Of a stretch of 64,000 nt of DNA, positions 31,037 through 58,644 are shown piece by piece (the stretch's first letter is position 1; each line of letters begins with the position of its first letter). Origin of the DNA: Acidobacteriaceae bacterium KBS 83 (GTDB lineage Bacteria > Acidobacteriota > Terriglobia > Terriglobales > Acidobacteriaceae); contig KB906735.1 of NCBI GenBank assembly GCA_000381585.1, positions 84,242 to 148,241 of the forward strand, read 5' to 3'. The notes under the pieces were generated by a model. It ran no database searches and was not told the DNA's origin. It saw only the letters and a list, made by a program, of their open reading frames with translations. Position numbers and translations under genes: made by a program.

Positions 31037-31112
31037 GGACGCGTAGCTCAACTGGCAGAGCATTCGACTCTTAATCGACAGGTTGTAGGTTCGATTCCTA
31101 CCGCGTCCACCA
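31037..31112 (+). tRNA. tRNA-Lys(CUU)
   Basis: The acceptor stem GGACGCG pairs perfectly with CGCGTCC. The D-loop begins TAGCTCAACTGGCAGA. The anticodon loop CTCTTAA carries CTT at 31070-31072, and the T-arm GGTTCGATTCC is standard. The CCA end is encoded at 31110-31112. An integrative element with a tyrosine integrase follows, so the 3' part of this gene is a natural attachment site. Confidence 0.95.
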
Positions 31113-31446
31113 TTTACAATCTAAAGCGGTTACGGTTGTACTCTCCGTTTAACCTCTAGCGCTATGTATTTGGCTGTTGTGGGGGATTTTGTGGGGGCGA
31201 CTCCCCTTGCGCGGCAAAATAGGCCGCGTGCGGGAAGGGCTCGAACAACGCGGTTTCTTCTGGCTTCAGGGACCCACCGGGTACGCCTACGTTAGAATCC
31301 CCGACTCGGCGAAGTCGGGCCGTCTGACTATCGCTCAGTCTCACTGATTTGAGAGTTGGTTCTAGCCGTCGTTGCCGCTGCCCGAACCAATTGAGTAATC
31401 GCTCGTCCCGAAGAGGGAAGGCGTGGCGGAGCGCAGGTAGCTGACT
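31113..31446. other. Non-coding segment between tRNA-Lys and the DUF1345 gene
   Basis: No convincing gene is present in these 334 bases. They hold the TTGTGGGGG direct repeat (31177-31197) and a perfect 7-bp hairpin, CCCGACT/AGTCGGG, with a 6-base loop at 31300-31319. The position just after the tRNA suits the left attachment region of the neighbouring integrative element. Confidence 0.45.
31177..31197 (+). repeat. Two TTGTGGGGG direct repeats, possible integrase arm sites
   Basis: TTGTGGGGG occurs at 31177-31185 and again at 31189-31197, a 12-base period. Short direct repeats close to a tRNA attachment site are typical of integrase arm-binding sites. A matching pair near the integrase end was not found by eye. 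Confidence 0.35.
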
Positions 31447-32094
31447 TCAGCTGCTGCCCAGGATGTTGATTGAGAATGCAATTACCCCGAGATTGAATAC
31501 AAAGGCACCCAATGTGTGAAATATGGCCGTGCGCCGGATACGCCGTGACGTAATGTCCACGTCGGAGGTCTGGAATGTCATTCCCAAGCAGGATGAGAAG
31601 TAGGCGAAGTCCCAGTAATTCGGCTCTCTAGTTTCGGGAAATCTGAGACCCCCACTGTCCTGGCCACGTAGATCATGGGTATAGAAGAGATGTGCGTAAT
31701 GCAGCGCATAGACGAGATTGCTGAAGATCCAGCACAGACAGAGCGTCACGATTACCAGTGCGACGTCGATGGTATGCGGTTTTCCTTTATGTGAAAGCTC
31801 ACTCGCCACTGCAGTCAGAATGGCGATCGTGACCGCGGCTGAGATCAGCAGGAGGCTTCCACGATTAGCATCATTTTGCAATGCTGCCTGGCGCATCTGG
31901 GCGGCTTCATAGCGAAATAGAGGGATTACGCAACAAACGAAGCTTACGCTGGCAAAGTCGAACGCGGCCATGCCTCCACGTATCGGCCCGAGCAGCGGGC
32001 ACGCAATTGCCGCTCCAGCAAGTGCACCCGCGCCAAAGACAAGAAATGGCCAAGGTGCGACGACATTTCCGACACCACGTTTGCTGCTTGCCAT
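31447..32094 (-). CDS. DUF1345 family membrane protein
   Basis: The product is about 215 aa with five or more transmembrane segments. The diagnostic DUF1345 C-terminal region is present: LVYALHYAHLFY, then YWDFAYFSSCLGMTFQTSD, then RRIRRTAIFHT. ATG 32094 is preferred because AGGAGG lies about 10 bases upstream; ATG 32124 in the same frame lacks a site. DUF1345 proteins are inner-membrane proteins of unknown role, often in accessory regions. It lies between the tRNA and the replication cluster, so it may be cargo of the element. Confidence 0.85.
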   Translation of the reverse strand: MASSKRGVGNVVAPWPFLVFGAGALAGAAIACPLLGPIRGGMAAFDFASVSFVCCVIPLFRYEAAQMRQAALQNDANRGSLLLISAAVTIAILTAVASELSHKGKPHTIDVALVIVTLCLCWIFSNLVYALHYAHLFYTHDLRGQDSGGLRFPETREPNYWDFAYFSSCLGMTFQTSDVDITSRRIRRTAIFHTLGAFVFNLGVIAFSINILGSS

Positions 32095-32272
32095 GTGGCG
32101 CGCTCCTCCTAGCCGAATGGCCATGTTTCTTTCGTAAAACCGATGTTAGTGGAATCTCCATTAATGCCCAGAAGGCCGCCTTGGCACCGTTCCTCTGCTG
32201 AATCCTTTCCAAATCGCGGTGTTGAACACTTCCGGCTTGTATTGGAGACTGCGCTGAGAGCATTCTTATCTC

Positions 32273-32638
32273 TTAGTGCACTAGGCTCCAGATCTCCGCG
32301 CAGTGGGAGACTTCCTGCAATCTCGGATCTGCCAATTCTTCCTCCGTGAAGCCGCCAACGGCTCGTAGGCCATCCGCGAGGGTCATCCCGTAAGGAATAC
32401 CGACCAAACGTCCGACCTCGCCCGACCCGCGCTCATCTTCCCCATATTCGCCGGCGTTCGGCTTTCTGTCGGCGTCGATGCCAATGATCAGTTCCCGCCG
32501 TCTAAGGCCCTTCATTCTCTCTTGTAGGATTCGTCTGGCTGCCGCGCGTGACTGTGGCGAGCCCAGCGTATGGTCGCCAGGCCGCGTTCCGCTGACTGTG
32601 GCGAGTAAACCAAGCTTTCGATCAGTGATCATCGTCAT
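32273..32638 (-). CDS. Hypothetical protein, last gene of the element's replication cluster
   Basis: This 121-aa ORF starts at ATG 32638 (or ATG 32632) and overlaps the end of the upstream ORF by 17 bases, so translation is probably coupled. It is rich in charged residues, with a basic N-terminal half and an acidic C-terminal half, and shows no recognisable domain. Existence is supported by the overlapping arrangement; function is unknown. Confidence 0.55.
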   Translation of the reverse strand: MTMITDRKLGLLATVSGTRPGDHTLGSPQSRAAARRILQERMKGLRRRELIIGIDADRKPNAGEYGEDERGSGEVGRLVGIPYGMTLADGLRAVGGFTEEELADPRLQEVSHCAEIWSLVH

Positions 32639-33101
32639 TTTCGACCTCGCGACTGTGACTCGATGTGGCGGGTAGTATGGCGTTGAACCAAGCCGGCAGC
32701 GCACCTGTGGAAGCATAGGCTTCGAGCTCCTCTGCAGACATGCGAGCAAACAGATCGTTCATCGAGACCATCTCTGTCCGGTCGATCCAGGCGCCATTCG
32801 CGTTGATCTTGGCGTAAGCCTGGACGGCGGCTACAACTGCCGACGCTGACACCTCTACTTCGCCTGCCTTCTCGATGATCGACTCTAGCGCGGCACGAAT
32901 CTTTCGACCGCGTTTCGGAAAGAGATCCAGGGCATGAGCGTGCCGGTAAACTGTCTTGCGGTCCGACAGCCCATATTCTTCCGCGATCAAAGCCGGACTA
33001 CGCCAAGCGATGAAAGCCGTCTCGATCTCCTCGCGATCCGCATGCTGACAGATGGTGCAGCAGCGTTGATGCCGGCCAAGGCTAATTCCAGGCTTGGACA
33101 T
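32622..33101 (-). CDS. Hypothetical protein with N-terminal cysteine motif and helix-turn-helix-like segment
   Basis: The 159-aa product begins with a CCTICQHAD cysteine/histidine cluster (residues 14-22). A stretch resembling a helix-turn-helix follows (ALIAEEYGLSDRKTVYRH, about residues 37-54), then a basic KRGRK patch. Its ATG directly follows the stop codon of the upstream ORF, and its end overlaps the next gene. A small DNA-binding protein, perhaps a regulator or terminase-small-subunit-like protein, is possible. No family is assigned. Confidence 0.6.
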   Translation of the reverse strand: MSKPGISLGRHQRCCTICQHADREEIETAFIAWRSPALIAEEYGLSDRKTVYRHAHALDLFPKRGRKIRAALESIIEKAGEVEVSASAVVAAVQAYAKINANGAWIDRTEMVSMNDLFARMSAEELEAYASTGALPAWFNAILPATSSHSREVENDDDH

Positions 33102-33467
33102 CTATTGAATTCTCCCGGTCACTTTGGCGAGGCAGCGCTTGATAAGCCCATCGCTCGGTTCAGAACGAACAAGTGTGAGCATGTTTTCCGGGACGATTCG
33201 TTGATTCGCCAGTTCGTTGTCGGACATATTCGGGGTTGCGCAATCGATGAGCTCAATCAGAGCGATCCTCAAGCTGCTGTACTCTTCTTTCCCGTGCGGG
33301 TTACGGTCCAGCCAGCTGAGAACCTCACCCAATGACCCATCCGGCATACGCACCAGCGCACCTTTCCCCCGAAGGTCATTCGGCACAGGCGAGAGCACAG
33401 ATCTGCCCTCGAGATCGGCCCGTATCATGGCCAATTGTCGTTGTTCTTGCAGTGTCAGGATGCTCAT
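33102..33467 (-). CDS. Hypothetical protein in replication cluster
   Basis: This 121-aa ORF starts at ATG 33467, with GGAG 6 bases upstream. The longer open frame to 33674 overlaps another candidate and lacks support. The protein is soluble and mixed alpha/beta, without recognised motifs. It sits between the DnaB-like helicase and the cysteine-motif protein, and its stop abuts the next ATG without a gap. Confidence 0.6.
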   Translation of the reverse strand: MSILTLQEQRQLAMIRADLEGRSVLSPVPNDLRGKGALVRMPDGSLGEVLSWLDRNPHGKEEYSSLRIALIELIDCATPNMSDNELANQRIVPENMLTLVRSEPSDGLIKRCLAKVTGRIQ

Positions 33468-33504
33468 CTTGCTCCAGTGATTTGGTTGTTCTGTTTTGGA
33501 CGAA

Positions 33505-33693
33505 CTAATGGGTAACCCAAGCAAAAGCTCCGCCCGCTTGCTGCTGGCAGACCTGGTACACGTCGCCAGTTGTTGCGTTCCGGACGATACATTGCAGCCC
33601 CTGACACTCTGCGGAGCATGTAGGCTGTGTTCCGGAAGTAGAAAGAAGTATGCCATTCGCCCCCCAGAACTCACCGGTGTTGTTATCGATGCT
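33505..33693 (-). CDS. Possible small cysteine-rich protein in frame after the dnaB stop codon
   Basis: Directly after the TGA of the helicase gene, 62 sense codons continue in the same frame to TAG at 33505-33507. The sequence looks protein-like, with four cysteines and a GDVYQVCQQ...FAWVTH ending. That ending resembles small phage-type proteins I recall that close with a VQVC...YAW motif. There is no ATG, GTG or TTG near its beginning. It is a readthrough extension, a gene with an unusual start, or a decayed gene. Confidence 0.35.
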   Translation of the reverse strand, partial: SIDNNTGEFWGANGILLSTSGTQPTCSAECQGLQCIVRNATTGDVYQVCQQQAGGAFAWVTH

Positions 33694-35025
33694 TCACGAG
33701 GCCCTCGCCATTCCTTCCTGTCGTGGAGAGCAGCTCTCGAATGTCAGAGAGCGCCGATTAAAAATGATTGGTAACGCGCCAGTTTCACCGGAGCGCTGCT
33801 TTGCAATGATGAGTTCGCCGGCGGACGATAGCCGGCCTTCCTCTTCGTCCCACTCGCGATGCAAAAGCGCGATTACATGCGCATCGTTCTCTAGCTGGCT
33901 TGATTCGCGAAGATCGCTCATCATCGGCCGTCGGTTTGGGCTGGAGCGATCCGCCCTTGCCAGCTGCGACAGGGCAAGCACGGGCACGTCTTCATCCTTG
34001 GCCAATCTGGTGAGTCCCCGAGACACGGCAGCGACCCGCAAGCGCTCGTCCCTACCCTGCGCACTCACGATCTGGCAATAATCCACCGCCACGAGCTTTA
34101 CTCCATCGCGCCGGACAGCCAGACGCGCCACCGCAGTGAGTTTTTCAACGGACAGAGTCGAATCGTCCACGATATGCAGAGGCCATTTCGCAATTCGAGC
34201 TGCTGCCTCATCGATCGCTCGCATGTCCGACTCGCTTGCCCAGCGTGGATCCGCGATGCGAGGAAAAGGAACTGCAGACTCTTCCGCGAGCAGGCGCCGC
34301 AACAGTTGTTGACGGCTCATCTCCAGCGAAAACAGCAGCACCGGAGTTTCCCGGCGGCAGTTCGCCGCGGCCGCCTGGCACATCAGACAGCTCTTTCCAA
34401 CTCCGGAACGCGCGCCGGCTACGGTTATCTCCCCGGGCTGGAAGCCGCGCGTGAGCGTATCCATCGATTCCAATCCAGTTGGAAGGCCAAGGAGATCGCT
34501 GGTACGAGTCCGCTCTCGCTCCATACGCCCCAGGAGTTCGGGCAACGCTGATGCGAGGCCACCACCGTTGTCGCTCTGCTCTGAGGCCCGGATTTCTAGC
34601 AGCGCTTCTTCGGTGCCCGACAGCAGTTCCTCCAGATTCGCGCTAGCACTCTCGCCCTCTTCGCTGGCGCGATGTATTACCTGAAGAAAACGGCGAAGCC
34701 TCGCCTTTTCCGCAATAGCTTTTGCGTAACTTCGGACTGCAATCCGCGAACGACTAATCCCTTCGGTCAACGAGGCAATGTAGGCTGCCCCGCCGATTCC
34801 GTCGAGTTCGCCGCGCTGGTGAAGATACTGGACGAGCGTGGCCAACGTCGCTGGCCTTCCCCACTCCAGTAGCGCTCCGATCGCCAGGAAGATCACGCGA
34901 TGGGAACTGAGTCCAAAATCCTCGGACGCGAGCACTTGCTGAGCCTCGAGAAAGGCGGTGTTCTCGGTGAGGCAATGTCCAAGCAAATCGCGTTCGAACT
35001 GAGGCACCATTGGCACTGAGTTCAT
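33694..35025 (-). CDS. DnaB-like replicative DNA helicase of the integrative element
   Basis: This 443-aa protein has the DnaB N-terminal domain (about residues 8-110; ERDLLGHCL, ASLTEGI) and a RecA-type helicase core with Walker A GARSGVGKS at 204-212. Walker B is VAVDYCQIV, and a late DLRESSQLENDA segment carries the sensor/arginine-finger region. It should unwind DNA at the element's replication fork. Its ATG overlaps the stop of the upstream replication gene (ATGA), as in phage O/P-type modules. It is probably a second, mobile-element copy, with the housekeeping dnaB elsewhere. Confidence 0.9.
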   Translation of the reverse strand: MNSVPMVPQFERDLLGHCLTENTAFLEAQQVLASEDFGLSSHRVIFLAIGALLEWGRPATLATLVQYLHQRGELDGIGGAAYIASLTEGISRSRIAVRSYAKAIAEKARLRRFLQVIHRASEEGESASANLEELLSGTEEALLEIRASEQSDNGGGLASALPELLGRMERERTRTSDLLGLPTGLESMDTLTRGFQPGEITVAGARSGVGKSCLMCQAAAANCRRETPVLLFSLEMSRQQLLRRLLAEESAVPFPRIADPRWASESDMRAIDEAAARIAKWPLHIVDDSTLSVEKLTAVARLAVRRDGVKLVAVDYCQIVSAQGRDERLRVAAVSRGLTRLAKDEDVPVLALSQLARADRSSPNRRPMMSDLRESSQLENDAHVIALLHREWDEEEGRLSSAGELIIAKQRSGETGALPIIFNRRSLTFESCSPRQEGMARAS

Positions 35026-35810
35026 GCGCCCACCGCCCGTCGCTGGTATTCCGGGCCGCTGTAAAGCGTTGCGGGATCTACGTACCGCATCTTCGGCTCG
35101 GGGCGAAACTCAGGCTTCCATGGCCAGCTTTGCTCCTCTCGCCAGTGACCCCCGGCGAAGAAGTTAGCTGCCCCCCATCCACGAATCTCGAACTTTCCCA
35201 GATCACGAGCCGCGGAGAATTTCTGCCAGCGAGCTGGCAAAAGCCGGATCACATCTTCGGGGGATGAACCGTTCACGAGTTCAAATCTGACGGCTATTGC
35301 CAGTGCCTGCAGGACCGGCTCAGCTCGCAGCGAAGGTTCGGCCTGAGCGATTCTGCGAACGACTTCATCGATCAATTCCTCGCCGGGTTCATGTGTAGGT
35401 TCTTGGTGGTTCTTCCTATAAGGGGATGCAGGGGGTTTTGACACCATGTCAGCTCGAACTGTCCCGTTTGTCACCTGGCGAAGTGACAGCGTGTCACCTG
35501 CGTGTGCGGACTTGAGTGACATCTTGCCACCTGACACACCCAGCTTCTCCAGGCAAATTCTGTAGCAGTTGTTTCTAGTACCGTCCTCGTTTTTGTGTCT
35601 AGGGAGAACCTGCAGATACCCACTTTCCTCAAGCGCCTCGATAGCACGGAGGACCGTGCGCTGAGAAAGCGATGTGGCCTTTGAAAGGTTCGCAATAGAC
35701 GGCCAGGCTAGACCATCGGTCCTTGCCTGATCCGCCAGCCGTACCAGCACCAGCCGGTGAGATGGCCGTTCAATGGGTGCCTCCCAAGCGGCGTTGAGAA
35801 TGAAGTTCAA
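35022..35810 (-). CDS. Winged-helix replication initiator-like protein (phage O / helix-turn-helix type)
   Basis: The product is 262 aa if it starts at TTG 35810, which has AGGAGG 4 bases upstream. ATGs at 35840 and 35846 have no site. The TTG overlaps the stop of the preceding small ORF (TTGA), and the protein would begin MNFILNAAWEA. Residues 20-75 form a winged helix (WPSIANLSKATSLSQRTVLRAIEALEESGYL split by a turn), as in phage and plasmid replication proteins. The C-terminal half is helical and tryptophan-rich. It is followed at once by the dnaB-like helicase, so it likely marks the origin and loads the helicase. Confidence 0.75.
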   Translation of the reverse strand: MNFILNAAWEAPIERPSHRLVLVRLADQARTDGLAWPSIANLSKATSLSQRTVLRAIEALEESGYLQVLPRHKNEDGTRNNCYRICLEKLGVSGGKMSLKSAHAGDTLSLRQVTNGTVRADMVSKPPASPYRKNHQEPTHEPGEELIDEVVRRIAQAEPSLRAEPVLQALAIAVRFELVNGSSPEDVIRLLPARWQKFSAARDLGKFEIRGWGAANFFAGGHWREEQSWPWKPEFRPEPKMRYVDPATLYSGPEYQRRAVGA

Positions 35811-36001
35811 GCAGCCTCCTGTTGGAGGCAGCGAGAACATTGGCATTCATGGGCAAGGCGAGTCTTCTGCAGTTCTATCGAAACCGCAAACTGTACGACT
35901 TGGGTCGGCATATCGTGCGCTGCTTTGGCTTTGCGGCGCGCCGCGGCTTCCAGATCACTTAGAGCTTTACCTACTGAACAGCTTCGCGTATGTTTAGTCA
36001 C
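35807..36001 (-). CDS. Small hypothetical protein translationally coupled to the replication gene
   Basis: This 64-aa ORF starts at GTG 36001 and ends in TGA that overlaps the TTG of the next gene. It is basic at the N-terminus (AARRKAKAA) and has four cysteines, three of them near the end (HECQCSRC). The TTGA overlap, with AGGAGG inside its last codons, is the main reason to accept it. Its role is unknown; a small DNA-binding or regulatory protein is plausible. Confidence 0.5.
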   Translation of the reverse strand: MTKHTRSCSVGKALSDLEAAARRKAKAAHDMPTQVVQFAVSIELQKTRLAHECQCSRCLQQEAA

Positions 36002-36122
36002 AGTTATTTTCCTAAGCGCCCGATTCCCTAGCCAGGTTGGGCGCTTTGTTATTGGTGAGTTGCGCCGGGTTCGGCGCAGGTACAAGGCGGGGGATTCGGG
36101 CTCCGCCCCAGGAGTGAGCTAC

Positions 36123-36305
36123 TCAGGCGACACGAGCCGGGGTCATTCCTTCTTCAATGAGCCGCTCGATTGCACTCGTGGGAATCCGAACCGATCGCCC
36201 TATCCGGACCGTGTCGATCTTCCTCGCGGCTACATAAGCCCACATCGTCTTCGGGCTGATGCTGAGCAGCTCCGCTGCTTCAGGTACTCGTACAAGCTTC
36301 GGCAT
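36123..36305 (-). CDS. Excisionase/AlpA-like helix-turn-helix protein
   Basis: This 60-aa protein is a single MerR-like excisionase fold: RVPEAAELLSISPKTMWAYV, then RKIDTVRIGRSVRIPTSAIE and a short helix. Such proteins direct integrase toward excision, or activate integrase transcription as AlpA does. It sits between the replication cluster and the divergent zinc-finger/integrase pair, the expected place for a lysogeny or directionality switch. Confidence 0.8.
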   Translation of the reverse strand: MPKLVRVPEAAELLSISPKTMWAYVAARKIDTVRIGRSVRIPTSAIERLIEEGMTPARVA

Positions 36306-36458
36306 TCCTCTCTTCTCCTCGCATCCGCTGTTTTCGCTTGCGTACTTGGGGCTACTGGTGGCACCTTAACTTGAGGGCCGGGGATACATCAATAAGAATC
36401 ACGTATCCCACGCGACTTCGACGTATACCCTCACATATTCCTTTTCGGAGGAAACTGA

Positions 36459-37124
36459 GTGCCATTAAAGCTCGATATAGTGTCGGTCAAAGTTCTTCTT
36501 TGGGTTGCAAAAGCGAGCACTGTGCGACTCGAGACAAATGCCGAAGGCAAGACCACATTTCACTTCGGAATGGATCCCGAAGTTCCTGACATGGAATTCC
36601 GTCAGGTCAAGGCCGATGAAGCGGTAGCGAGATTCCTTGAGGCCGGGACCGCACACGATTTCTATCGAGTCTTTAGAACATACGGCCCGCTGCGACGGTG
36701 GTCGCAAGAAACAGTGACTCTCGATGAAGTCCGCGCAATTCAAACCACGTCACGACTTATGAGAGAGCGCGGGACCTATAAGCGGATCTGTGATTTAAAT
36801 GCGCTTGTGGAGGCGAACTTCCCCGCGGAGGTCCTGGAAAAGGGCGATGCTTCGGCGGTGCGTAACATTCCATCATTCCGAGCGTCATGGCAGTCGCCGC
36901 TTAAGCTGGAAGCTGAGTGCGATGGTTTGCTAGAAGCGTTGAGTTGCACATTGTTTCTCGACAAGGCCAATGATCGCGATCGGATATTTTGTGCTCGGAA
37001 GGAGTGCGGGAGAACCTTTCTGAAGAAGAAGGGTGATAAACGCATCTACTGCGATCGCATGTGCGGAGTGAAAGTAGCTAAGGCGAGGCTGAGCGCCAAG
37101 AAGAAGAAACGAGCTGCGAAATGA
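36459..37124 (+). CDS. CGNR-like zinc-finger protein coupled to integrase
   Basis: This 221-aa protein starts at GTG 36459, with GGAGGAAA upstream. About 170 residues of mixed helix precede a C-terminal zinc finger: FCARKECGRTF, then YCDRMCGVKVAKAR, which follows the CGNR pattern C-x4-C...C-x3-C. CGNR proteins (ABATE domain) are putative regulators. Its stop overlaps the integrase ATG by 4 bases (ATGA), so the two are cotranslated. It may regulate integration or act as the element's repressor; that is inference. Confidence 0.7.
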   Translation: MPLKLDIVSVKVLLWVAKASTVRLETNAEGKTTFHFGMDPEVPDMEFRQVKADEAVARFLEAGTAHDFYRVFRTYGPLRRWSQETVTLDEVRAIQTTSRLMRERGTYKRICDLNALVEANFPAEVLEKGDASAVRNIPSFRASWQSPLKLEAECDGLLEALSCTLFLDKANDRDRIFCARKECGRTFLKKKGDKRIYCDRMCGVKVAKARLSAKKKKRAAK

Positions 37125-38212
37125 CCCTTTATCAGCGGGGCAAAGTCTGGTGGTACGAGTTTGAGTTCCGCGGCCAGCGGATCCGCGAGTCTGCTCATTC
37201 GCGCACGAAGAGCATCGCCGAACGAATAGAGCGTGAGCGCCGGCGTCACCTGGAGCTGGGCTCCGTCGGTCTCAAAGAGCATCGCGCGCCTCAGATGTTC
37301 AGCGTAGCTTCAAAGAAATGGCTGGAGGCTAGCAAGACGCACTGGAGCGCCAGCAACTACCGCATCGAATCCATCAACCTCGGGCACTTGGCGCCGCATT
37401 TCGGCCGCAAGCTGTTGGTGGACATTTCGGGAGATGACATCAGCCGCTACCAGGCAGTGCGGAAAGAAGAGGGAGCCAGCCCACGCACCGTCAACATGGA
37501 GGTGGGGACTCTCCGCGCCATCCTTCGCAAGCACCGCCTCTGGGCGAACATCCAGCCGGACGTGCGCATGCTGAAGACGCGTGGCGAGATCGGCAGAGCG
37601 TTATCGGCGGATGAACAGCATCGATTGCTGACAGCCTGTAAGAAGGTTCGATCGCGATCGCTCTACCCGGCCGTACTGCTCTCGCTGCACACAGGACTGC
37701 GCAACGCAGAGCTGCGATTGCTGCGCTGGCGTCAGATTGACTTCCTGGAGAAGCAGCTAATCGTGGGCAAGAGCAAGACGGCGGGTGGCGAGGGCCGCGT
37801 GATTCCGCTAAGCGAGACGGCCTTCAAAGCCCTACAGGAATGGCGCCGCGAGTTCCCGGATGCATCACCAGCTCATTATGTTTTCCCAACCGAGCGCTAT
37901 GGGCTTGCTGGCGAGGAAGGCTACTTGGAAGGCAAGGTCGTGCCATATGCGATCGACCCGACGAAGCCGATCGGCTCGTGGAAGGTGGCGTGGACTGCTG
38001 CACGCACTGCGGCAAAAGTCGATTGCCGCTGGCACGACATGCGTCATACGTTTGTGAGCCGGCTGGCCGAATCGCAGGCATCTGACGCCACGATCATGTC
38101 TTTGGCCGGACACCTGAGTCGCAAAATGATGGAACGATATTCACACACACGGGCTGAAGCGAAGCGCGCCGCTGTGGCCGTGCTCGATCACAGTCGCCCG
38201 GTGGCCGAGTAG
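37121..38212 (+). CDS. int: Tyrosine-type site-specific integrase
   Basis: This 363-aa recombinase has an N-terminal arm-binding region (residues 1-55), a SAM-like core-binding domain (about 60-145) and a catalytic domain. The active site is complete: R194 (HTGLRNAEL), K219, H305/R308 (HDMRHTF), H331 (AGHLS) and nucleophile Y340 (MERYSH). It should integrate and excise the element, with tRNA-Lys at 31037 the obvious attachment candidate. It is coupled to the CGNR gene. The next ORF is convergent, 7 bases away. Confidence 0.93.
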   Translation: MTLYQRGKVWWYEFEFRGQRIRESAHSRTKSIAERIERERRRHLELGSVGLKEHRAPQMFSVASKKWLEASKTHWSASNYRIESINLGHLAPHFGRKLLVDISGDDISRYQAVRKEEGASPRTVNMEVGTLRAILRKHRLWANIQPDVRMLKTRGEIGRALSADEQHRLLTACKKVRSRSLYPAVLLSLHTGLRNAELRLLRWRQIDFLEKQLIVGKSKTAGGEGRVIPLSETAFKALQEWRREFPDASPAHYVFPTERYGLAGEEGYLEGKVVPYAIDPTKPIGSWKVAWTAARTAAKVDCRWHDMRHTFVSRLAESQASDATIMSLAGHLSRKMMERYSHTRAEAKRAAVAVLDHSRPVAE

Positions 38213-38219
38213 AAGCTTG

Positions 38220-38822
38220 TCAGCATGCGCCTTCTTCCAAGCCAACATTCCGAAGCATCCGCAGTAGTCTAATTTTCGCGTGAGGAGTTTCTGTAACGGC
38301 CTTCTGAATGAGCTCTTGGCTAACGCCAGATCCTCTCAGCACAATGACACCGAACAGAAGTTGTGCGGCTTCGGTCACAGCATTTAGTTTTTCGTAGTAG
38401 CCTTCTGCGGGCGGGTGATTTCTCGGTCCACCAAAATGCGACAGTTCGTTTCTATAGTTAGCGCACCGCCTCGCGAATCCGCGTATGGCTTCACGTGTGG
38501 TGGGAATCGGCAAATCTTCCAATAGTCCCCATATTCGCTGCTCAAGCGAAATCTCTTCGAGCCGCAAAAGCTTCTGTCGTACCCACCTCCGTTTCCGGCT
38601 GTCTAGCTTGTCTTGGAGCGCCACCATCACACCAGGATCTCCGAGGACTCGGGTCACTTCCTGGATGGACATCTTCCGGAGATTGCCCAGGGGATTCTTA
38701 ATTCCGCACAGGCTGCACACGGCACCATCCTTGAGCGCGAAGTGATTCGGACCCATGCGGCCGTGGCAGGTCCAGCAAACCAGACAGGCGACGACCCGGT
38801 TGGCTCGTTTCGGCTTCAGCAT
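38220..38822 (-). CDS. Chimeric zinc-ribbon / HEPN-like protein next to the integrase
   Basis: The 200-aa product has two unrelated parts. Residues 1-57 form a zinc ribbon (CLVCWTCHGR and CSLCGIKN) nearly identical to the start of the 44025-44462 gene. After SIQEVT the two proteins diverge completely. Residues 80-180 are helical with the motif YRNELSHFGG. An R-x4-H motif in that setting is the HEPN signature and recalls the C-terminal HEPN domain of ApeA-type anti-phage proteins. The family match is from memory. It may be a truncated defence gene fused to an unrelated 5' end, or an active small HEPN ribonuclease. It is convergent with int. Confidence 0.55.
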   Translation of the reverse strand: MLKPKRANRVVACLVCWTCHGRMGPNHFALKDGAVCSLCGIKNPLGNLRKMSIQEVTRVLGDPGVMVALQDKLDSRKRRWVRQKLLRLEEISLEQRIWGLLEDLPIPTTREAIRGFARRCANYRNELSHFGGPRNHPPAEGYYEKLNAVTEAAQLLFGVIVLRGSGVSQELIQKAVTETPHAKIRLLRMLRNVGLEEGAC

Positions 38823-38909
38823 GCCAGGAGGGTAAACAAGCAGGGCTTGCGGATGGCGAAGAAAATGCGAAATGATAGGCCGTCGTTAAACACGTGTGGT
38901 CGCTACGTT
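38651..38909. repeat. Duplicated segment, copy 1 (zinc-ribbon 5' end plus divergent promoter plus SRAP start)
   Basis: This segment matches 44289-44549. Between 38741 and 38884 only about four differences are seen in 144 bases. It contains the start of the zinc-ribbon gene on the minus strand, the shared upstream region and the first codons of an SRAP gene on the plus strand. Similarity stops after CGCTACGTT. Confidence 0.85.
38892..38909 (+). pseudogene. SRAP gene stub (first six codons only)
   Basis: The codons ACG TGT GGT CGC TAC GTT correspond to the MCGRYV start of the intact SRAP gene at 44532, with ATG changed to ACG. Unrelated sequence follows. The stub marks where a second SRAP copy was lost. 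Confidence 0.7.
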
Positions 38910-38983
38910 ACTTCTCCGCCCAACGGAAATCTGAAGCAATCTGTTCCGAATCTAGACGTTCAGGACTTGATCGTGTCCCTGGT

Positions 38984-39184
38984 TCAACAGGGACTGAATC
39001 CGCCCCTGTTGTGGTTCAGATATCCCAAGCTACGCCATTGTGTGTGCAGCGCCGTGTGGTCGGAGACCGGCATTATTGTTGCCCACTCGCCCTCAATGAT
39101 TTCGGTGGAGAGCGTCACCAGATATTTCGCTCGGCCCTCGCGTGGAGGCAAGATGCTAGTGATCGCAATTCGGAAAGTGGTCAT
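38984..39184 (-). CDS. Uncertain small hypothetical protein
   Basis: A 66-aa frame from ATG 39184 gives a plausible soluble alpha/beta peptide (EIIEGEWATIMPVSDH in the middle), but there is no ribosome binding site and no recognised family. It begins in the region to the right of the SRAP stub. Confidence 0.3.
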   Translation of the reverse strand: MTTFRIAITSILPPREGRAKYLVTLSTEIIEGEWATIMPVSDHTALHTQWRSLGYLNHNRGGFSPC

Positions 39185-39816
39185 GAGATGTGTTCTCGTC
39201 ACACTTGCCGCGAAGCGGCTCTTTCGGCCATCCAAAAGACCCGACCGTGGGGCACATTAAAACTCCACACCACTAGCCATCGTTCGCTAACTTAATACCA
39301 ACCGAGAGCCGGTCGGAAACTAGTAGAAGTGCCAGCAAGAATGTGACGGAGGGCCGGACGATTCATCTCGACAGTCAATAGCGATTGGCGTTTCCGGCCC
39401 GCAAGGCTAAGACGTTCGGCCACACCACGAGCCGGCTTCAACCACGCCCGAATCGTTGGAGGAGCGCTCCCCAGAGACTCCAGGATTGCTCTCCGGCGCG
39501 TAGCTCTTCTTGCGGTAAGCCTCTTGGAAGTTTCGCGCATAGGCTTGCAAGCAGAAGCGATTTCGCTCGGACAAGCAAAACTTGAAAACCCAAAATCAAA
39601 TCCAAGTGCAGCTTAAGCGTTCGAATTTCTCATCAAGCGGTACGAGAGCAATTTTTGAAAACGATTGATTTATCGCAGCTTCTGGCCACGAGCACATGAC
39701 CACTGCCCGCTATCGACGGATAGTGTGAGTGGGACTAGCAGGGGGACGCGTCCATGGAGCAAAAAGAGAGCTGATCGGCTCACGGCCGATCAACCCTCAT
39801 GTAGCCGAATCGCGGC
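39185..39816. other. Gap without a recognisable gene
   Basis: These 632 bases contain only short frames without ribosome binding sites or recognisable motifs. I see no repeats or RNA genes here. It may be decayed accessory DNA. Confidence 0.4.
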
Positions 39817-40290
39817 TTACTTTCTGCTATCGCGCGCTGCCTTCACGTAGTCGTGCGATTTTTGAACGTGTGCATATTGTGTGGTCAAGAGCTCTTTAAC
39901 AGGCGCCGGCAAGTACTTTTGGAGTGCGTCCTTGTAGGCGTTCTTAGCGGCATCCTCTCCCTGCTCCGCTGTCTCCAGCAGAGTGTGATCGCCGCCGCCG
40001 AGATGTGCCTTGATGTCACCCCAGGTGCGATGGAGAGCGCCGCTCACGCTCCCGCTCTCCTTAGGATCGTGCTCTCCAGTGGAGTGGAGCAATGTCTCGA
40101 GTTCACCGCGGAATTGTGAACGCTTGAGAGATTCGGCGAAGAAGTACTTTTTCAGAGTTTCGTCCTTCAAATGTTCGCCGATCTTCTGAAATCCTTCATG
40201 GCCGTCGATCAAACTCTCGATCACATCGTGTAGAGTTTCGCGCACTTCCTTGTTGCTGATCTTCTGCTCTTCGCGTGTTGTTGTAGTCAT
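39817..40290 (-). CDS. PA2169 family four-helix-bundle protein (DUF2383)
   Basis: The 157-aa product starts at ATG 40290, with GGAAGG 5 bases upstream. It fits the DUF2383/PA2169 family: LHDVIESLIDGHEGFQKIGEHL, then FAESLKRSQFRGELETLL, GALHRTWGDIK and a final amphipathic helix, giving a ferritin-like four-helix bundle. Members are induced by general stress in other bacteria; no enzymatic role is assigned. It belongs to the stress-gene group scattered through this region. Confidence 0.85.
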   Translation of the reverse strand: MTTTTREEQKISNKEVRETLHDVIESLIDGHEGFQKIGEHLKDETLKKYFFAESLKRSQFRGELETLLHSTGEHDPKESGSVSGALHRTWGDIKAHLGGGDHTLLETAEQGEDAAKNAYKDALQKYLPAPVKELLTTQYAHVQKSHDYVKAARDSRK

Positions 40291-40536
40291 CGATTCCTTC
40301 CGAATGGTGCGGTTATCACAGTTTTTGAACATGAGGGTGGCCCGCCCTCATAATTTCGCTACGGGTAGGTCGGTACTGCTTTCAGGGATGCCTCCAACGA
40401 GGCGATGGCGTCTCTCAGCTTGGTCGCGACCCCGATTCCGCCACCTGGCGGATTACGCCCCTCGCCGTCGCACTAGATGATCGCGTGTGAGGCACGGGGT
40501 CGGCTAGGTAAGACTTGACTCCCCGAAGCTAATCGA

Positions 40537-40668
40537 CTACTCAGGGTCAACGGGCTTTTCTTTCGACTCCTCTTCCTGCCTCCTCTTTTCATCTCTGTCT
40601 GTCAAGACCGGTCGTCCCTCTGTATCGCGCTTTCCTTGCGCTTCATCGGCCTTCGGATCATTTGCCAT
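40537..40668 (-). CDS. Small highly charged hydrophilic protein (43 aa)
   Basis: ATG 40668 is preceded by GAGG with 6 bases spacing and opens a 43-codon frame to TAG. About half of the residues are charged (a DRDEKRRQEEESKEKP stretch), with no hydrophobic core, so the protein is intrinsically disordered and hydrophilin-like. Small disordered proteins like this are often stress-induced. The neighbouring PA2169 gene fits that setting. Confidence 0.55.
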   Translation of the reverse strand: MANDPKADEAQGKRDTEGRPVLTDRDEKRRQEEESKEKPVDPE

Positions 40669-40895
40669 GAATCACCTCTGTTTCTTGGATGCCAGGCGAG
40701 CAGCGAAGAGTCCACTCCGGCGCTTAGACAGATGAAATCCTGATGTACTGAACTACATCCGGTCCGATTGCGTATGTAAGCCGACCCCTATCCCTGTCAA
40801 GGGCAGTCGCAGGAGACCGTTCCCAGGTCGAAATCTCGGGCGTCTGGACCGCGCCCCATTGGGATGGGGTTCGCCACGGTCAGGCCAGTCAAAAC

Positions 40896-41276
40896 TTACC
40901 CAAGCAAACGACCCGCTGTTTCGAGCAGAACTGTCGGATGAACCGGCTTTGCCAAAATTTGAAATTCTCCAACCTTGTTGTTCTTCGATATCAGAAGTTC
41001 AGATGACGCCATATCGCCGGTGAAGAGCAGAATCCGACAACGGGGATATTTAGCAGTCAGGGTCATGGCGAGGGTGATTCCGTTCATTCCGGGCAGCATG
41101 ACATCGATGAGCGTAAACTCCGGCACCCATTCCGCGAGCATATGTGTCGCTTCTTCGGCTGACAGTGCATACTTCGCTTCATAGCCATTTCGGGAAAATA
41201 TGAAGGCTAACGTTTCGCTCGTTACTCGCTCGTCATCGACGATCAGAATCCTGCGCCTTATATCCGCATCAGCCAA
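40896..41276 (-). CDS. Single-domain response regulator (receiver only)
   Basis: This 126-aa protein starts at TTG 41276, with AAAGGGG upstream. The frame stays open to 41450, but that part runs into ligase debris. The receiver is complete: D14/D15, phospho-acceptor D58, T86 and K110. With no output domain it probably works as a phospho-relay or by protein contact. The histidine kinase at 42683-43777 is the nearest possible partner. Confidence 0.8.
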   Translation of the reverse strand: MADADIRRRILIVDDERVTSETLAFIFSRNGYEAKYALSAEEATHMLAEWVPEFTLIDVMLPGMNGITLAMTLTAKYPRCRILLFTGDMASSELLISKNNKVGEFQILAKPVHPTVLLETAGRLLG

Positions 41277-41358
41277 GGTTGGCCCCTTTCGCGCCGTCAG
41301 GACACCGGGGGAACTGCGCCTTGACCGAAATCTGGTCGTTTTCCTAGTACTGTCAGGA

Positions 41359-41424
41359 TTATGAGATGCGCAAAAATGACTGGTGGACCTTGACACCGCG
41401 CACTTCGTATCGCTCCATCGCCAT
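41359..41424 (-). pseudogene. Stub of the ORF that follows ligase fragments (MAMERYEV)
   Basis: Directly after the ligase stop codon (41426) a 21-aa frame begins MAMERYEV and soon stops. The same start, MVMERYEV, opens the 90-aa ORF at 42558, which also follows a ligase 3' fragment. The shared start shows that both loci came from one ancestral ligase-plus-downstream-gene arrangement. Confidence 0.5.
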
Positions 41425-41425
41425 G

Positions 41426-41640
41426 TCATGCATCCCTCACGATCGAGCACGGATCCTTCTCATCTCGTAGACCCACGAACTTCGAGTGTCGGAGGGGTTG
41501 GCCCCGGTCCACTCCAGAAACTCGATCTCAGCCATGAGGCGCGGCTTCACCCAGACGGGATTTCGCGCCGCTTCGAGAGGGTCTGTTTCGTGAGATCCTC
41601 GCCGCGTCTCACCAGCACGTCGAAGGCATAGAACATGAGG
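41426..41640 (-). pseudogene. DNA ligase fragment 1: C-terminus fused to an internal segment
   Basis: Positions 41426-41560 match the last 43 or so codons of the intact ligase at 52493, ending DEKDPCSIVRDA and stop. At about 41560 the match jumps to ligase residues 106-131 (FYAFDVLVRRG region), so about 440 bases are deleted. The fragment ends near 41640 inside the helix-turn-helix gene. It differs enough from the intact gene to be a separate paralogue. Confidence 0.8.
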
Positions 41641-42049
41641 TCACGCCCCAACTATTGCTCCCTTTTACTAACAATGCCTCCACTTTCCCTCTAGAGAACC
41701 GAAGTGCCTTGGCGAACTTCAGTCCCGGCAAGACCCCTGATTTGAAATACCTGGCCACGGTCATCCGGCTGACACGGAGATAGTCTGCAACTTCATCGGT
41801 GGTAAGAACATGGCTATCCGGCGGAATCTGTCTCGATCCGGCAAAGGGTTGTTCCTGATGTCGTGAGGAAGTTGTCGCGCCGGCCATCTTCTCGATTTCA
41901 GGACGCTGAAAGACCCAGCGCATCCCTCTACGCTTTCCAGGCAGTGAGCCTTCTCCGAGTCGCCTCATCACGGTGGGCGGACTGATGCCCAGCATCTCTG
42001 CTACCTCCGCCAGGCACATCCACTCGGGATTATCAAATTTTCGGTACAT
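41609..42049 (-). CDS. Tandem helix-turn-helix (excisionase-type) protein with altered C-terminus
   Basis: This 146-aa protein has two MerR/excisionase-type domains: residues 10-55 (CLAEVAEMLGISPPTVMRR) and 80-128 (LTTDEVADYLRVSRMTVARYF). Two-domain proteins of this kind are DNA-binding regulators or recombination directionality factors. The last ten or so codons (TSCSMPSTCW) are read from ligase debris in the wrong frame, so the natural C-terminus has been lost. The domains themselves look intact. Confidence 0.75.
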   Translation of the reverse strand: MYRKFDNPEWMCLAEVAEMLGISPPTVMRRLGEGSLPGKRRGMRWVFQRPEIEKMAGATTSSRHQEQPFAGSRQIPPDSHVLTTDEVADYLRVSRMTVARYFKSGVLPGLKFAKALRFSRGKVEALLVKGSNSWGVTSCSMPSTCW

Positions 42050-42285
42050 CAGACCTCTCTTGACCGCTGCATCAGCTCAAGCACCGCAGTTTTAGGATTC
42101 GATGCGCGTCCCGACGATGCGATTCCATCGATGGCTGGCTACATTCAAGCGGAGATGAGCCTCTCGTTGATTTTTTTCCAATCAAATAATGTTTGGATCT
42201 ACTTCATGTTCTTCCCTTGTCCAAGGCTGCGCGCGCTGCCGCTCCCAGCTTCTAATGCAACGTTCGGGCCAAGTCTAGAGTCGAG

Positions 42286-42558
42286 TCAGCGAGGGATCCT
42301 GCTATGCCGCGGTGCTGCTTCGTAAGTGGCTGTATGAATGCTTTGGTCGGAGGTTTCGAAGAGCATATTTCTGTTATTGACCGAAACAACCCATATCACA
42401 CCCGTCCGGGCAGAACGATCGGATGGTGCAACCGGCACAAGCTTCAAGGACGGCTCAGCGTCTGCGGAAGCTTCGGCCGATTTCTCACTCTGAGAGAACT
42501 GGCTGAATATTGATAGCGCGCCGCGATTGAGGAATACTTCGTATCGCTCCATCACCAT
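42286..42558 (-). CDS. Hypothetical protein downstream of a ligase fragment
   Basis: This 90-aa ORF starts at ATG 42558 with GGGAG, inside the final ligase codons, 7 bases upstream. It begins MVMERYEVFLNRGALSIF and has no recognised domain; the C-terminal third is basic. Its start is shared with the stub at 41424, which argues for a real ancestral gene translated after the ligase. Confidence 0.4.
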   Translation of the reverse strand: MVMERYEVFLNRGALSIFSQFSQSEKSAEASADAEPSLKLVPVAPSDRSARTGVIWVVSVNNRNMLFETSDQSIHTATYEAAPRHSRIPR

Positions 42559-42559
42559 G

Positions 42560-42601
42560 TCACGACTCCCTCACTACGGCACCCGGGTCCTTGTCGTCTG
42601 A
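42560..42601 (-). pseudogene. DNA ligase fragment 2: last 13 codons
   Basis: The codons read DDKDPGAVVRES and stop, matching DDKDPRSVVRET at the end of the intact ligase at 52493. Nothing upstream on the same strand continues the match. This is a third version of the ligase 3' end in the window. Confidence 0.65.
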
Positions 42602-42682
42602 CGGCAAAAACTAACAGTGGGGTGCCAAAATGGGGATCGATAACGGCTAGCTAGCCGGAGGAGTGTCGCGCTAGAGAAGCGC

Positions 42683-43777
42683 TCAAATGTCGGCGATGGC
42701 CCTCTGGAGCGGAACAGTTACAACTATCATCGTACCTTTCACGGACAGTCCTGATTGAATGTGGAATATCCCGCCCACCATCCTGGCTCGTTCTCTCATG
42801 CTCTGAATGCCGATTCCGTTGGAGGCCGGATTCTCGGCTGGATGGAATCCCACACCGTCATCAAATACGGTTAAGTGGATGGAATCGGAATCCGCCGTCA
42901 ATTGAACTTCGACCTTCGAAGCGCGGCTGTGCTTGCGCACGTTGTGCAGTCCTTCCTGCACGATCCGAAAAATATTCAGAGCCGCTTCATGGGGCACTGT
43001 TCGAGGAATATTTCTGTGACTAAACTCCACCTGGATTCCATCTTGGCGTCCGACTTCCGCACAAATCGAATGGATACTGGGAACAAGCCCAACGTTGACC
43101 AACAGGGACGAATGCAGGCGATGAGAAAGAGAACTCAGGTCGTCAGCAATCTCCTGAAGCACGGTCGTAAGGTCCGAGTCCCTAATCACCTGTGGGTCGC
43201 ACAGCACCAGAGCAAGCCGCTGGCCTATATCGTCGTGCAGCTCCTGAGCAATGCGGCTTCGCTCTTGTTCTTGGGCGTTAATCAAACGTCCGCCAAGCGC
43301 TTCGCGTTCCAGTTGAGCCTGTTTACGCTCAGTGACGTCGAAAGCCACTCCGATCACGTATAGTGGCTTGCTGGACTTTCTGTAATAGCCTCTCCCACGG
43401 GCATTGATCCAGCGGATGCTTCCGTCGGGTCGCAGACAACGGTACTCGATATCGTAGGGGAGTCCATTCTCCAGCTGATATCGCCAGGTGTTCTGAACGT
43501 TTGTGAGGTCGTCCGGGTGCAAAGCTTTGTAGAACGTGTCCACCGTAACTTTGCCCTTCAGTTTTACGCCAAACATCTCGCGCATCTTCCGGTCACAGAA
43601 TAGAACTTGCGTCTGCTCATTCCAATGCCAGAGTCCCAACTCTGAGCCTTCAGCAGCCAGCCGCAGCCATTCCTGAAACGTCCGGGGTGCATTTTTCAAA
43701 CTCCGTTTAGCGCGGTGCGCAGTCTTAGCAGCGCCGTTGCGGAGACCGATCAGTTCGCCAGCAGTTCTTTGTGGCAT
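42683..43777 (-). CDS. PAS-domain sensor histidine kinase (HisKA_3/NarX-type)
   Basis: The 364-aa soluble kinase has a PAS fold (about residues 38-152; LHPDDL, RPDGSIRWI, DVTERKQ), then a HisKA_3 dimerisation helix with phospho-acceptor H181 in ELHDDIGQRL. A HATPase domain follows with N-box EGLHNVRKHS and G-boxes DDGVGF and GIGIQSMRERA. HisKA_3 kinases usually pair with NarL-type regulators; none is adjacent, and the receiver-only protein at 40896-41276 is the closest candidate. No transmembrane segment is seen, so it senses a cytosolic signal. Confidence 0.9.
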   Translation of the reverse strand: MPQRTAGELIGLRNGAAKTAHRAKRSLKNAPRTFQEWLRLAAEGSELGLWHWNEQTQVLFCDRKMREMFGVKLKGKVTVDTFYKALHPDDLTNVQNTWRYQLENGLPYDIEYRCLRPDGSIRWINARGRGYYRKSSKPLYVIGVAFDVTERKQAQLEREALGGRLINAQEQERSRIAQELHDDIGQRLALVLCDPQVIRDSDLTTVLQEIADDLSSLSHRLHSSLLVNVGLVPSIHSICAEVGRQDGIQVEFSHRNIPRTVPHEAALNIFRIVQEGLHNVRKHSRASKVEVQLTADSDSIHLTVFDDGVGFHPAENPASNGIGIQSMRERARMVGGIFHIQSGLSVKGTMIVVTVPLQRAIADI

Positions 43778-44024
43778 CTTAAGAGCAACTCGGCGTTAGA
43801 GTTGGCTGATTTTACGCCAATAGCTCTAGTCCTGAGCCAGAGAACTTGACTTAGGGGAGTTCACTTTGGAACTTCGCAACATTCGTAGTAGACGTACGAT
43901 GCGACTCGCCTCGTCCGCTGATTCTATTGAAGCATTTATGAGATGGGTTCTAGCCATCAATTATCAGAATGGAATTGTGATCATGCAGACGATCATCGCC
44001 ACTCCGACAAGTGCCGCGTGCGGA

Positions 44025-44462
44025 TCAGAGCTTGTTCCAGTCGATTCTGAGTAGGTTCTTGCGCAGGGGCAGCAGCCGGACCTGACTGGTGCCCTGCCCG
44101 CACCGCCTCATCTGGTTCTGATGGTCGGCAAGCTGGGCATCAGTGGCTCCCAGGTAGCGCAGCGCCTTCTCTAGCGTTTCCGCTGAAGCGAAGTTAATCC
44201 ACGGGCCGAGCACCGTTTTGCACTCGATATGTAGCGCATGCGCCGCCGTCCCGCCCTGAGTGAAACACACCAGGATCTCCGACGGTTCGGTCACTTCCTG
44301 GATTGACCTCTTCCGGAGATTGCCGAGCGGGTTTTTGGTCTGGCATAGGCCGCATACGGCGCCGCCATCTTTAAGCGTGAAGTGATTCGGGCCCATGCGG
44401 CTATGGCAGGTCCAGCAAACCAGACAGGCGACGACCCGGTTGGCTCGTTTCGGCTTCAGCAT
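44025..44462 (-). CDS. Zinc-ribbon protein divergent from the SRAP gene
   Basis: This 145-aa protein begins with a zinc ribbon (CLVCWTCHSR, then CGLCQTKN) identical in plan to residues 1-57 of the 38220-38822 chimera. After SIQEVT it has its own C-terminal half (ALHIECKTVLGPWINF, then ATDAQLADHQNQM), which is probably the native one. It is divergent from the SRAP gene, with 69 bases between the starts. A role with SRAP in DNA repair is only suggested by position. Confidence 0.6.
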   Translation of the reverse strand: MLKPKRANRVVACLVCWTCHSRMGPNHFTLKDGGAVCGLCQTKNPLGNLRKRSIQEVTEPSEILVCFTQGGTAAHALHIECKTVLGPWINFASAETLEKALRYLGATDAQLADHQNQMRRCGQGTSQVRLLPLRKNLLRIDWNKL

Positions 44463-44549
44463 GCCAGGAGGGTAAACAAGCAGGGCTTGTGGATGGCGAA
44501 GAAAATGCGAAATGATAGGCCGTCAACAGACATGTGCGGTCGCTACGTT
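44289..44549. repeat. Duplicated segment, copy 2 (intact zinc-ribbon / SRAP divergent promoter)
   Basis: This is the counterpart of 38651-38909. Here both flanking genes are intact, so it is probably the source copy. The nearly unchanged 144 bases around the two start codons include the bidirectional promoter region. Confidence 0.85.
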
Positions 44550-45191: not shown

Positions 45192-45255
45192 TCGCGCCAG
45201 CCTCATGCGACGCCGGAGGGCCACTTCCCATCTGTTGCAGAATGCCGCGATGCGT

Positions 45256-45453
45256 CTAGACGGCCTCTTTCTCCGCGTTGTACATCAAGTGGGCCGCCGC
45301 CAGTCCTTGTCTCGCTAATTTTCGTTCGGATAGGCACCAGCGCTTTCTGAAACGCCATCCCGATCCGTGCAGAAGGTCCAGGAGCCATTCGTCGTCTGAA
45401 ATGGCGGACTTGGTGGTTTTGTTTGTTTGCTCATGTAGCGATGATACCGTCAC
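45256..45453 (-). CDS. Small hypothetical protein with a strong ribosome binding site
   Basis: GTG 45453 has AGGAGG 9 bases upstream and opens a 65-aa frame rich in tryptophan, arginine and leucine (SGWRFRKRWCLSERK in the middle). No family is recognised. It converges with the SRAP gene, and acceptance rests on the strong site. Confidence 0.45.
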   Translation of the reverse strand: MTVSSLHEQTNKTTKSAISDDEWLLDLLHGSGWRFRKRWCLSERKLARQGLAAAHLMYNAEKEAV

Positions 45454-45609
45454 CTAAACAATCCTCCTACATTACGTCTGGTTACCCTTCAAGGCGGGTC
45501 TGCCCGAGTAGGAAGGCGCTGCGGGGCAGAATATGCTTGATTTGAGCGCCCCGGCCCCATGCGTCATCAGGTGACTCGCAAAACTTCCCTAGATTGCCCT
45601 CAATCTGCT

Positions 45610-58617: not shown

Positions 58618-58644
58618 TCTCGAAGTACGCCTAAGGAGGGCTCT

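Follow-up and report, generated by a model that had tools for sequence, protein, structure and literature searches.

A probable tRNA-Lys genomic island with a terminal mobility and replication core in an Acidobacteriaceae bacterium

Tycheposons and satellites of the P4 and PICI types target tRNA genes and carry an integrase and a replication helicase module without virion genes. In the replication region of lambdoid and P22-type phages, an O-like Rep gene is followed by a gene for a DnaB-type helicase within one operon. Many satellites carry defence genes, according to a paper that names tycheposons and P4/PICI-type satellites (PMC11389934). For the Acidobacteriota, PMC3174227 gives 16 candidate islands in Solibacter usitatus that contain integrases and are associated with tRNA genes. 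Here, we analysed a window of 64,000 nucleotides from Acidobacteriaceae bacterium KBS 83, in which a compact, self-contained and satellite-like integrative element had been predicted at 31037-38217. We put the probability at roughly 75% that this segment forms one end of a ~39.8-kb genomic island in tRNA-Lys(CTT) and represents its core for mobility and replication, which is most likely inverted.

Boundaries and gene content of the island

Sixty base pairs of the tRNA-Lys 3′ half, at 31061..31120 (+), form the attL core. A copy with 57/60 identities (E 2.4e-20) is located at C3:155087-155146 (window-equivalent 70846-70905), which places the right attachment copy 6.8 kb past the window end. No second tRNA-end copy was present within the window at three or fewer mismatches, and near 38.2 kb neither a tRNA-end copy nor an arm pair was found. 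Just inside both tRNA-end copies sit paired arm-like repeats (TGTGGGGG..TGTGGGG): the left pair, TGTGGGGGATTTTGTGGGGGC, is at 31178..31198 (+), 65 bp from the tRNA, and its partner is at window-equivalent 70713-70731, 114 bp ahead of the right core. As a pair, the repeats occur only at these two ends within the ~43 kb examined. The tRNA-end copy at 155087 and the arm pairs at both ends therefore delimit the element as a ~39.8-kb GC-poor island. Its GC content is 0.557, compared with 0.601 upstream and 0.612 downstream, a contrast to be read against the 11 of 64 outside 5-kb pieces that are poorer in GC than the island mean; the dinucleotide signature is unremarkable (44 versus 52, sd 40). With a duplicated tRNA 3′ end on its flanks and a tyrosine integrase inside, the element is a tRNA-targeting integrative genomic island.

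The 57/60 copy of the tRNA 3′ half bears out the predicted integration at tRNA-Lys. The right attachment site, reported as not seen by eye, is indeed missing from the window and was located beyond its end. Reading 31037-38217 as a self-contained unit did not hold, given that the right attachment copy lies outside the window and none exists near 38.2 kb; nor is the element compact, since the repeat-bounded unit spans about 39.8 kb, not 7.2 kb. The element size is thus revised from 7 to about 40 kb, with ends defined for excision assays.

The integration target on the attL side is tRNA-Lys(CTT) at 31037..31112 (+), matching the tRNA-Lys(CUU) named in the original prediction. It is followed by genes for a DUF1345 membrane protein (31447..32124, -; 4e-49), an unnamed ORF, orf32273 (32273..32749, -), pieces of which match adjoining orf32622 in several relatives, and the orphan orf32622 itself (32622..33101, -), judged by eye to be putatively DNA-binding. 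Matches to orf32622 occur in 34 of 399 class genomes, its own included, and the identity to its counterpart in the element of relative G122 is 71% over 137 aa. A role for orf32622 as a small terminase was considered and rejected: it has no Pfam or PHROG match, and the scanned neighbours in five relative loci were ordinary bacterial genes in four, a primase-like gene in one (L159) and a terminase in none. The replication operon comprises an orphan ORF with no family match (33102..33674, -), a DnaB-type replicative helicase (33694..35025, -; Pfam DnaB_C 1.4e-65) with one other own-genome match at 1e-5 (37% identity), and Rep, a phage replication-initiation/O-like winged-helix protein (35022..35846, -; HTH_36 2.2e-9; PHROG replication initiation 3.6e-20). 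The Rep and dnaB frames are intact and overlap by 4 bases. Further along are an excisionase-like HTH_17 protein (36123..36305, -; 2.6e-12; PHROG excisionase/regulator 1e-7), a zinc-finger partner (36459..37124, +) that overlaps int by 4 bases, and the tyrosine integrase (37121..38212, +; 2.4e-23; PHROG 1.7e-54), which points away from the tRNA and the arm pair and is 6-7 kb distant from the latter. The predicted winged-helix replication protein, DnaB-like helicase, excisionase-like HTH protein and tyrosine integrase were all recovered, and Rep and DnaB supply the replication module that had been proposed. The predicted CGNR zinc-finger gene is present, although its CGNR assignment is weak (E 8e-4, under the Pfam cut-off).

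Cargo starts with a HEPN_Apea protein (38220..38822, -; 2.3e-6) and fills the rest of the window (38823..64000) with DUF2383, response regulators, a histidine kinase, SRAP, DUF2252, DUF892, BrkB/YihY, HAD, an ATP-dependent DNA ligase and a Crp-like regulator. The island extends 6.9 kb past the window, and its cargo, with genes for stress, repair and signalling, amounts to ~32 kb. Among 35 in-island proteins, a set that took in part of the small ORFs, Pfam (E 0.001) returned no capsid, portal, tail or terminase family and no family for relaxase, type IV secretion or conjugation. This agrees with the predicted lack of capsid, tail, large-terminase and conjugation genes, and the check for capsid genes as part of the element, which would have spoken against the prediction, found none.

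Orientation of the core and a model for mobility

In the model that we favour, the tRNA 3′ half serves as attL and its copy as attR; the integrase would recombine the two, and the CCCCACA-type arm repeats inside both ends would be the sites that it uses. The HTH_17 protein may act as the excision factor, and Rep would load DnaB, by which the excised circle could be copied. Transfer would need a helper, either a phage or a conjugative element, because particle or mating genes were not recognised. The ~7-kb core (about 31.2-38.2 kb) appears to be inverted relative to relatives, which would have moved the integrase away from its arm pair. Inversion is the most likely explanation for this displacement. 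Against it, the integrase has a plausible natural stop (that of relative L077 likewise stops before its arms), so an inversion breakpoint is not marked by any broken gene. A second integrase in the same genome, in a ~39-kb tRNA-Asn island (C5) with a different repeat adjoining its ends (by eye), likewise lies at a distance from the intact tRNA, so displacement need not mean inversion.

Phage-type Rep and DnaB, an integrase, an excisionase-like protein and no recognised virion genes would also be expected of a strict phage satellite packaged by a helper phage. Helicase/primase-type genes in some bounded relatives (G395, G041 and G412) and defence-type genes in some bounded relatives point the same way, as does the frequency of defence genes in satellites stated in the relevant section of PMC11389934. 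We nevertheless regard such a satellite as quite improbable. Small terminase, capsid-resizing and packaging genes were not recognised, orf32622 is unsupported as a terminase, and neither Rep nor orf32622 has relatives in viral contigs (single-protein scan, close relatives only). A stress cargo of 32 kb is also unlike familiar satellites. No packaging or capsid-redirecting gene was recognised in the core by Pfam or PHROGs, several proteins there being orphans, and the label "satellite" is unproven for this element.

Rep weakly matched proteins in 274 phage records and had 31 weak matches in plasmid records, with identities below 60% throughout; the CGNR-like protein had no match in plasmid records. 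Two distant matches to the integrase (29% and 31%) were found in viral contigs in a scan for close relatives only. The weak resemblance of Rep to phage replication proteins would suit a decayed prophage that retained early and integration genes and took up cargo from the chromosome, and 6 of 35 published acidobacterial prophages lack virion genes (PMC5900883). We consider decay very unlikely, as the Rep and DnaB frames are intact and the compact elements that house the integrase relatives are likewise free of virion families (none among 70 proteins), so the absence looks original.

Relatives of the integrase and of the locus

Loci were recovered for 29 integrase relatives; in 26 of them a tRNA faces the integrase 3′ end, at 74-155 bp from the match end in 23. 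The window integrase departs from this layout: its 3′ end does not face a tRNA within about 150 bp. Longer stretches were taken for 14 of the 29, chosen by rank and contig size, and far-end cores of 48-64 bp were found in nine. These nine relatives, bounded at both ends, measure 5.9-17.1 kb, and in all nine a repeat pair precedes the far-end core (by eye); the window island matches the group in this respect, with an arm pair of its clade's type. An HTH_17 homologue is near the integrase in 12/14 longer-stretch relatives and 19/29 short loci. The compact relatives share the integrase family and the site layout at tRNA genes, and the idea of a compact element therefore suits them better than it suits the window locus. 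An integrase facing a tRNA, an arm pair and a far-end core together give a recipe for bounded mobile elements in Acidobacteriota.

At 39.8 kb, the island is more than twice the size of the largest bounded relative (17.1 kb), which raises the possibility of two adjacent elements: a compact ~7-kb one (31.1-38.2 kb) missing its right end, at the edge of an older island of ~32 kb to which the 155087 copy belongs. The window core alone has the size of a bounded relative, and the orf32622/orf32273 matches sit inside the compact element of G122. Stacking of elements does happen, as G395 and G412 have additional, weaker tRNA-end copies past the first one. We hold this arrangement to be unlikely, given that near 38.2 kb there is neither a tRNA-end copy nor an arm pair and that the arm pair beside the tRNA and its counterpart at the far copy share the type of this integrase's clade. 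A single island with a turned core is the reading that we retain; the island is a member of a group of elements in the class Terriglobia that target tRNA genes, and is probably a rearranged, large relative of the smaller ones.

The full predicted rep-dnaB-xis-CGNR-int order was recovered nowhere else. Rep has matches in four of 399 class genomes, its own included, and in one of the others (G288) a DnaB-like gene adjoins it; the CGNR-like protein matches only its own genome (1/399). Among 80 loci around the upstream neighbour gene, tRNA-Lys is within 700 bp of this gene in 33, and 20 of the 33 show more than 5 kb beyond it. Neither the core nor the window's integrase or right flank had a match in any of the 80, and no exact empty site sharing that right flank was found in relatives via the upstream gene. 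Right neighbours of tRNA-Lys vary, each right-hand gene family being common to at most 4 of 30 loci with tRNA-Lys. The core is thus absent from the same locus in relatives, as befits a genomic island, and the original prediction's concern that the same genes might be fixed in all relatives was not borne out.

In a 31-row integrase tree, the window integrase falls within a 6-row clade (96/91) that contains all three CCCCACA-scored rows. Five arm labels jointly required 10 changes on the tree, compared with a shuffled mean of 16.5, and 0/200 shuffles were as low. The CCCCACA label alone is unclustered (3 changes, as low in 500/500 shuffles), since three "none" rows, the window's own included, belong to that clade as well. 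The labels come from a simple pattern match that gave "none" for 12 of the 31 rows; in some of these, other repeats are visible by eye. The 31 rows give a hint that the arm sequence goes with the clade of the integrase.

Comparison with described elements

The part of the open-licence PMC literature covered, including sections of PMC11389934, PMC3174227, PMC11924767 and PMC5900883, contains no description of the Terriglobia integrase/arm-site group. The original prediction suggested that such a unit in Acidobacteriota may be undescribed; as an island the window element is ordinary, and the wider group may deserve a description. We tentatively propose a widespread, undescribed, helper-dependent and tRNA-integrated family in the Terriglobia that would share an excisionase, a zinc-finger partner, an integrase and often a helicase/primase, and whose arm sites would change with integrase clade. 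Small members would carry defence genes and a few would grow to 40-kb stress-gene islands; if so, the window island would be one of the few members grown to 40 kb of stress genes.

Like the acidobacterial tRNA islands in the section of PMC3174227 concerned and like integrative mobilizable elements, the window island combines a tyrosine integrase, a tRNA neighbourhood, low GC and variable cargo with no recognised transfer genes of its own. Unlike them, it has defined attachment repeats and arm pairs, has no recognised relaxase, and its integrase is displaced and turned from the site. The order of Rep and a DnaB-type helicase in one operon resembles the lambdoid/P22 region, whereas the island is without a phage structural module and its Rep is about 24-33% identical to 20 listed phage records. 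An integrase and an own replication module, a combination expected of P4/PICI-type satellites, are both present. The island shares with tycheposons and P4/PICI-type satellites a tRNA target, an integrase, a replication helicase module and the lack of recognised virion genes, as well as defence-type cargo in some of its relatives; it differs from them in its large size, its stress cargo, its host among the Acidobacteriota and its lack of a recognised packaging or capsid-hijacking gene.

Ends, genes and cargo of the island

In the 6.25-Mb, 21-contig genome that holds the window (C3:84242–148241), a tRNA-Lys(CTT) gene was found at 31037–31112 by both ARAGORN and Rfam (positions refer to the window unless a contig or locus is named). 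A whole-genome search with the tRNA region located a duplicate of its 3' half at C3:155087–155146 on the same contig (57/60 identities, E 2.4e-20), 6.8 kb past the window end. The core-to-core distance is about 39.8 kb, which is at odds with the compact, satellite-like unit of 31037–38217 in the original prediction. With three mismatches between the right core and the tRNA, the island may be old. Its GC content is 0.557 compared with 0.601 and 0.612 in the flanks, a value undercut by 11 of the 64 5-kb pieces compared elsewhere in the contig stretch, and its dinucleotide signature is unremarkable. A paired arm-like repeat lies just inside each end: TGTGGGGGATTTTGTGGGGG 65 bp after tRNA-Lys and its partner TGTGGGGGATTGTGTGGGG 114 bp ahead of the right core. 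Over ~43 kb, starting at 30.9 kb and ending about 9.8 kb beyond the window end, the pair was seen at the island ends only, and single copies of the half-motif also occur elsewhere.

The predicted gene set was retained for DnaB (33694–35025, minus strand), a phage-type Rep (35022–35846, minus) whose gene shares four bases with dnaB, an HTH_17 excisionase-like protein (36123–36305, minus) and a tyrosine integrase (37121–38212, plus). The CGNR zinc-finger assignment at 36459–37124 (plus) is weak, with an E value of 8e-4 that falls under Pfam's cut-off. The original observation is partly confirmed and its interpretation partly supported.

Past the integrase, the cargo encodes HEPN_Apea, DUF2383, SRAP, DUF2252, DUF892, BrkB/YihY, an ATP-dependent DNA ligase, a Crp-like regulator, a histidine kinase and response regulators, followed by a sulfatase, a bestrophin-like protein and an OmpA protein. 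Scans of 35 in-island proteins, which cover only part of the small ORFs, detected no family of virion, terminase, relaxase or secretion proteins. Partial copies of the ligase gene region (41426–41641, 42536–42599, 52493–52561, 53059–53694 and 59960–60273; 78–98% identical over short stretches) suggest repeated duplication and decay within the island. The HEPN/SRAP region is also partially duplicated (38628–38909 and 44266–44549; 44575–44618 and 51275–51318), and a further, frame-shifted SRAP gene sits directly beyond the right core (L006:7662–8313).

Eighty named loci of the gene upstream of the tRNA were compared; tRNA-Lys was present in 42, on the same strand in 37 and less than 700 bp from the gene in 33 of these, 20 of which have more than 5 kb visible beyond. 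None of the 80 matched the island core or the window's right flank. Named relatives of this upstream gene, Silvibacterium and Acidipila among them, indicate that the genome is probably one of the Acidobacteriaceae. What follows tRNA-Lys on its right varies between relatives, as at a hot spot, so no clean empty site was readable.

Integrase relatives and compact elements

Across 399 sampled genomes of the class Terriglobia, own genome counted, integrase matches at E 1e-40 or better occurred in 90, Rep matches at 1e-8 in four and the CGNR-like protein at 1e-8 in its own genome only. In one Rep-bearing genome (G288), Rep is overlapped by a DnaB-like gene, the arrangement also seen in the window. 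An orphan ORF at 32622–33101 (minus) had matches at 1e-5 in 34 genomes, mainly from one family of the class and with up to six copies per genome (G087); a relative of the window integrase was nearby in only two of 13 fetched loci.

Among 29 relatives with returned integrase loci, 26 have a tRNA on the opposite strand past the integrase 3' end, 74–155 bp from the match end in 23 and 248, 680 and 1230 bp away in three. The remaining three run off the contig end (L082), carry a tRNA-Lys 3' half without a complete tRNA (L095) or give a 264-residue match with no tRNA (L101). An excisionase-like homologue lies close to the integrase in 12/14 longer stretches and 19/29 short ones. By eye, seven of 10 inspected proteins from ORFs at or near the integrase start, the window's included, have two Cys pairs at their ends, which suggests that the group shares a zinc-finger partner.

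A far-end tRNA copy falls inside the fetched DNA in nine of the 14 longer relatives (none in five), delimiting elements of 5.9, 7.2, 7.5, 7.6, 7.8, 9.4, 10.1, 12.8 and 17.1 kb. All nine have, by eye, a repeat pair ahead of the far core, like the window. Together they have 78 ORFs of at least 100 residues, of which 70 were scanned; those omitted were four integrases and four ORFs crossing the edge of a stretch, the latter including three more integrases. The complete Pfam list for these 70 (23 families at 1e-5) comprises helicase, integrase, Druantia, MmeI-type and other domains, with no virion or conjugation family. Nothing structural appeared among the 25 PHROGs families listed (of 53), and the PADLOC matches (25 of 39 listed) include Druantia DruA and type IIG restriction enzymes. 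Five of 10 large proteins from the bounded and two unbounded relatives are helicase/primase-like by Pfam or PHROGs (DUF3631, DUF3987 and AAA_25 types); therefore, a replication module is common, though not demonstrated in each relative. The other five are mostly defence-like or unknown.

Arm type and the displaced integrase

When 31 integrases were placed in a tree, that of the window fell in a clade of six (support 96/91), which contains all three rows scored as CCCCACA-type, the window's arm type; a fourth member, from G399, has this type at its far end by eye. Both island ends carry the arm type of the window integrase's clade, which ties the integrase to these ends. The five arm labels are jointly clustered on the tree (10 changes compared with a shuffled mean of 16.5; 0/200 shuffles as low). 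The CCCCACA label by itself shows no clustering (three changes, 500/500 shuffles as low) because the clade includes three "none" rows, among them the window's displaced integrase.

Relatives usually have the integrase facing the tRNA with the arm pair between. In the window, the pair is at the expected spot by the tRNA, but the integrase is 6–7 kb away on the opposite strand, its tail running into the HEPN gene. Inversion of about 31.2–38.2 kb is the simplest account. A short frame crossing the arms by the tRNA ends ...SPPQNPPQQPNT, resembling relatives' integrase tails (...VSPQIPP, ...DSPQNSPQ); as a sign of inversion this is suggestive only, since the integrase of clade member L077 stops ahead of its arms. 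Displacement may also have other causes, because the integrase is likewise away from the intact tRNA in a second ~39-kb island of this genome, at tRNA-Asn (C5:550801–590006). There, a related integrase (41%) adjoins the far-end tRNA fragment, a broken integrase lies just outside, and a repeat near both ends resembles TGTAGCG by eye.

Proposed working and relation to known elements

From known family roles, the integrase and HTH_17 factor would recombine the tRNA halves to excise the island, Rep would load DnaB onto the circle and a helper would move it. No account of the compact relatives was found in the open-licence PMC papers searched, and that group may be undescribed, although a survey of acidobacterial genomes counted six of 35 prophages lacking virion genes and remarked that these might be satellites (PMC5900883). 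The window's island belongs to an already known kind, the tRNA-associated island: such islands with integrases have been described in an acidobacterium (PMC3174227).
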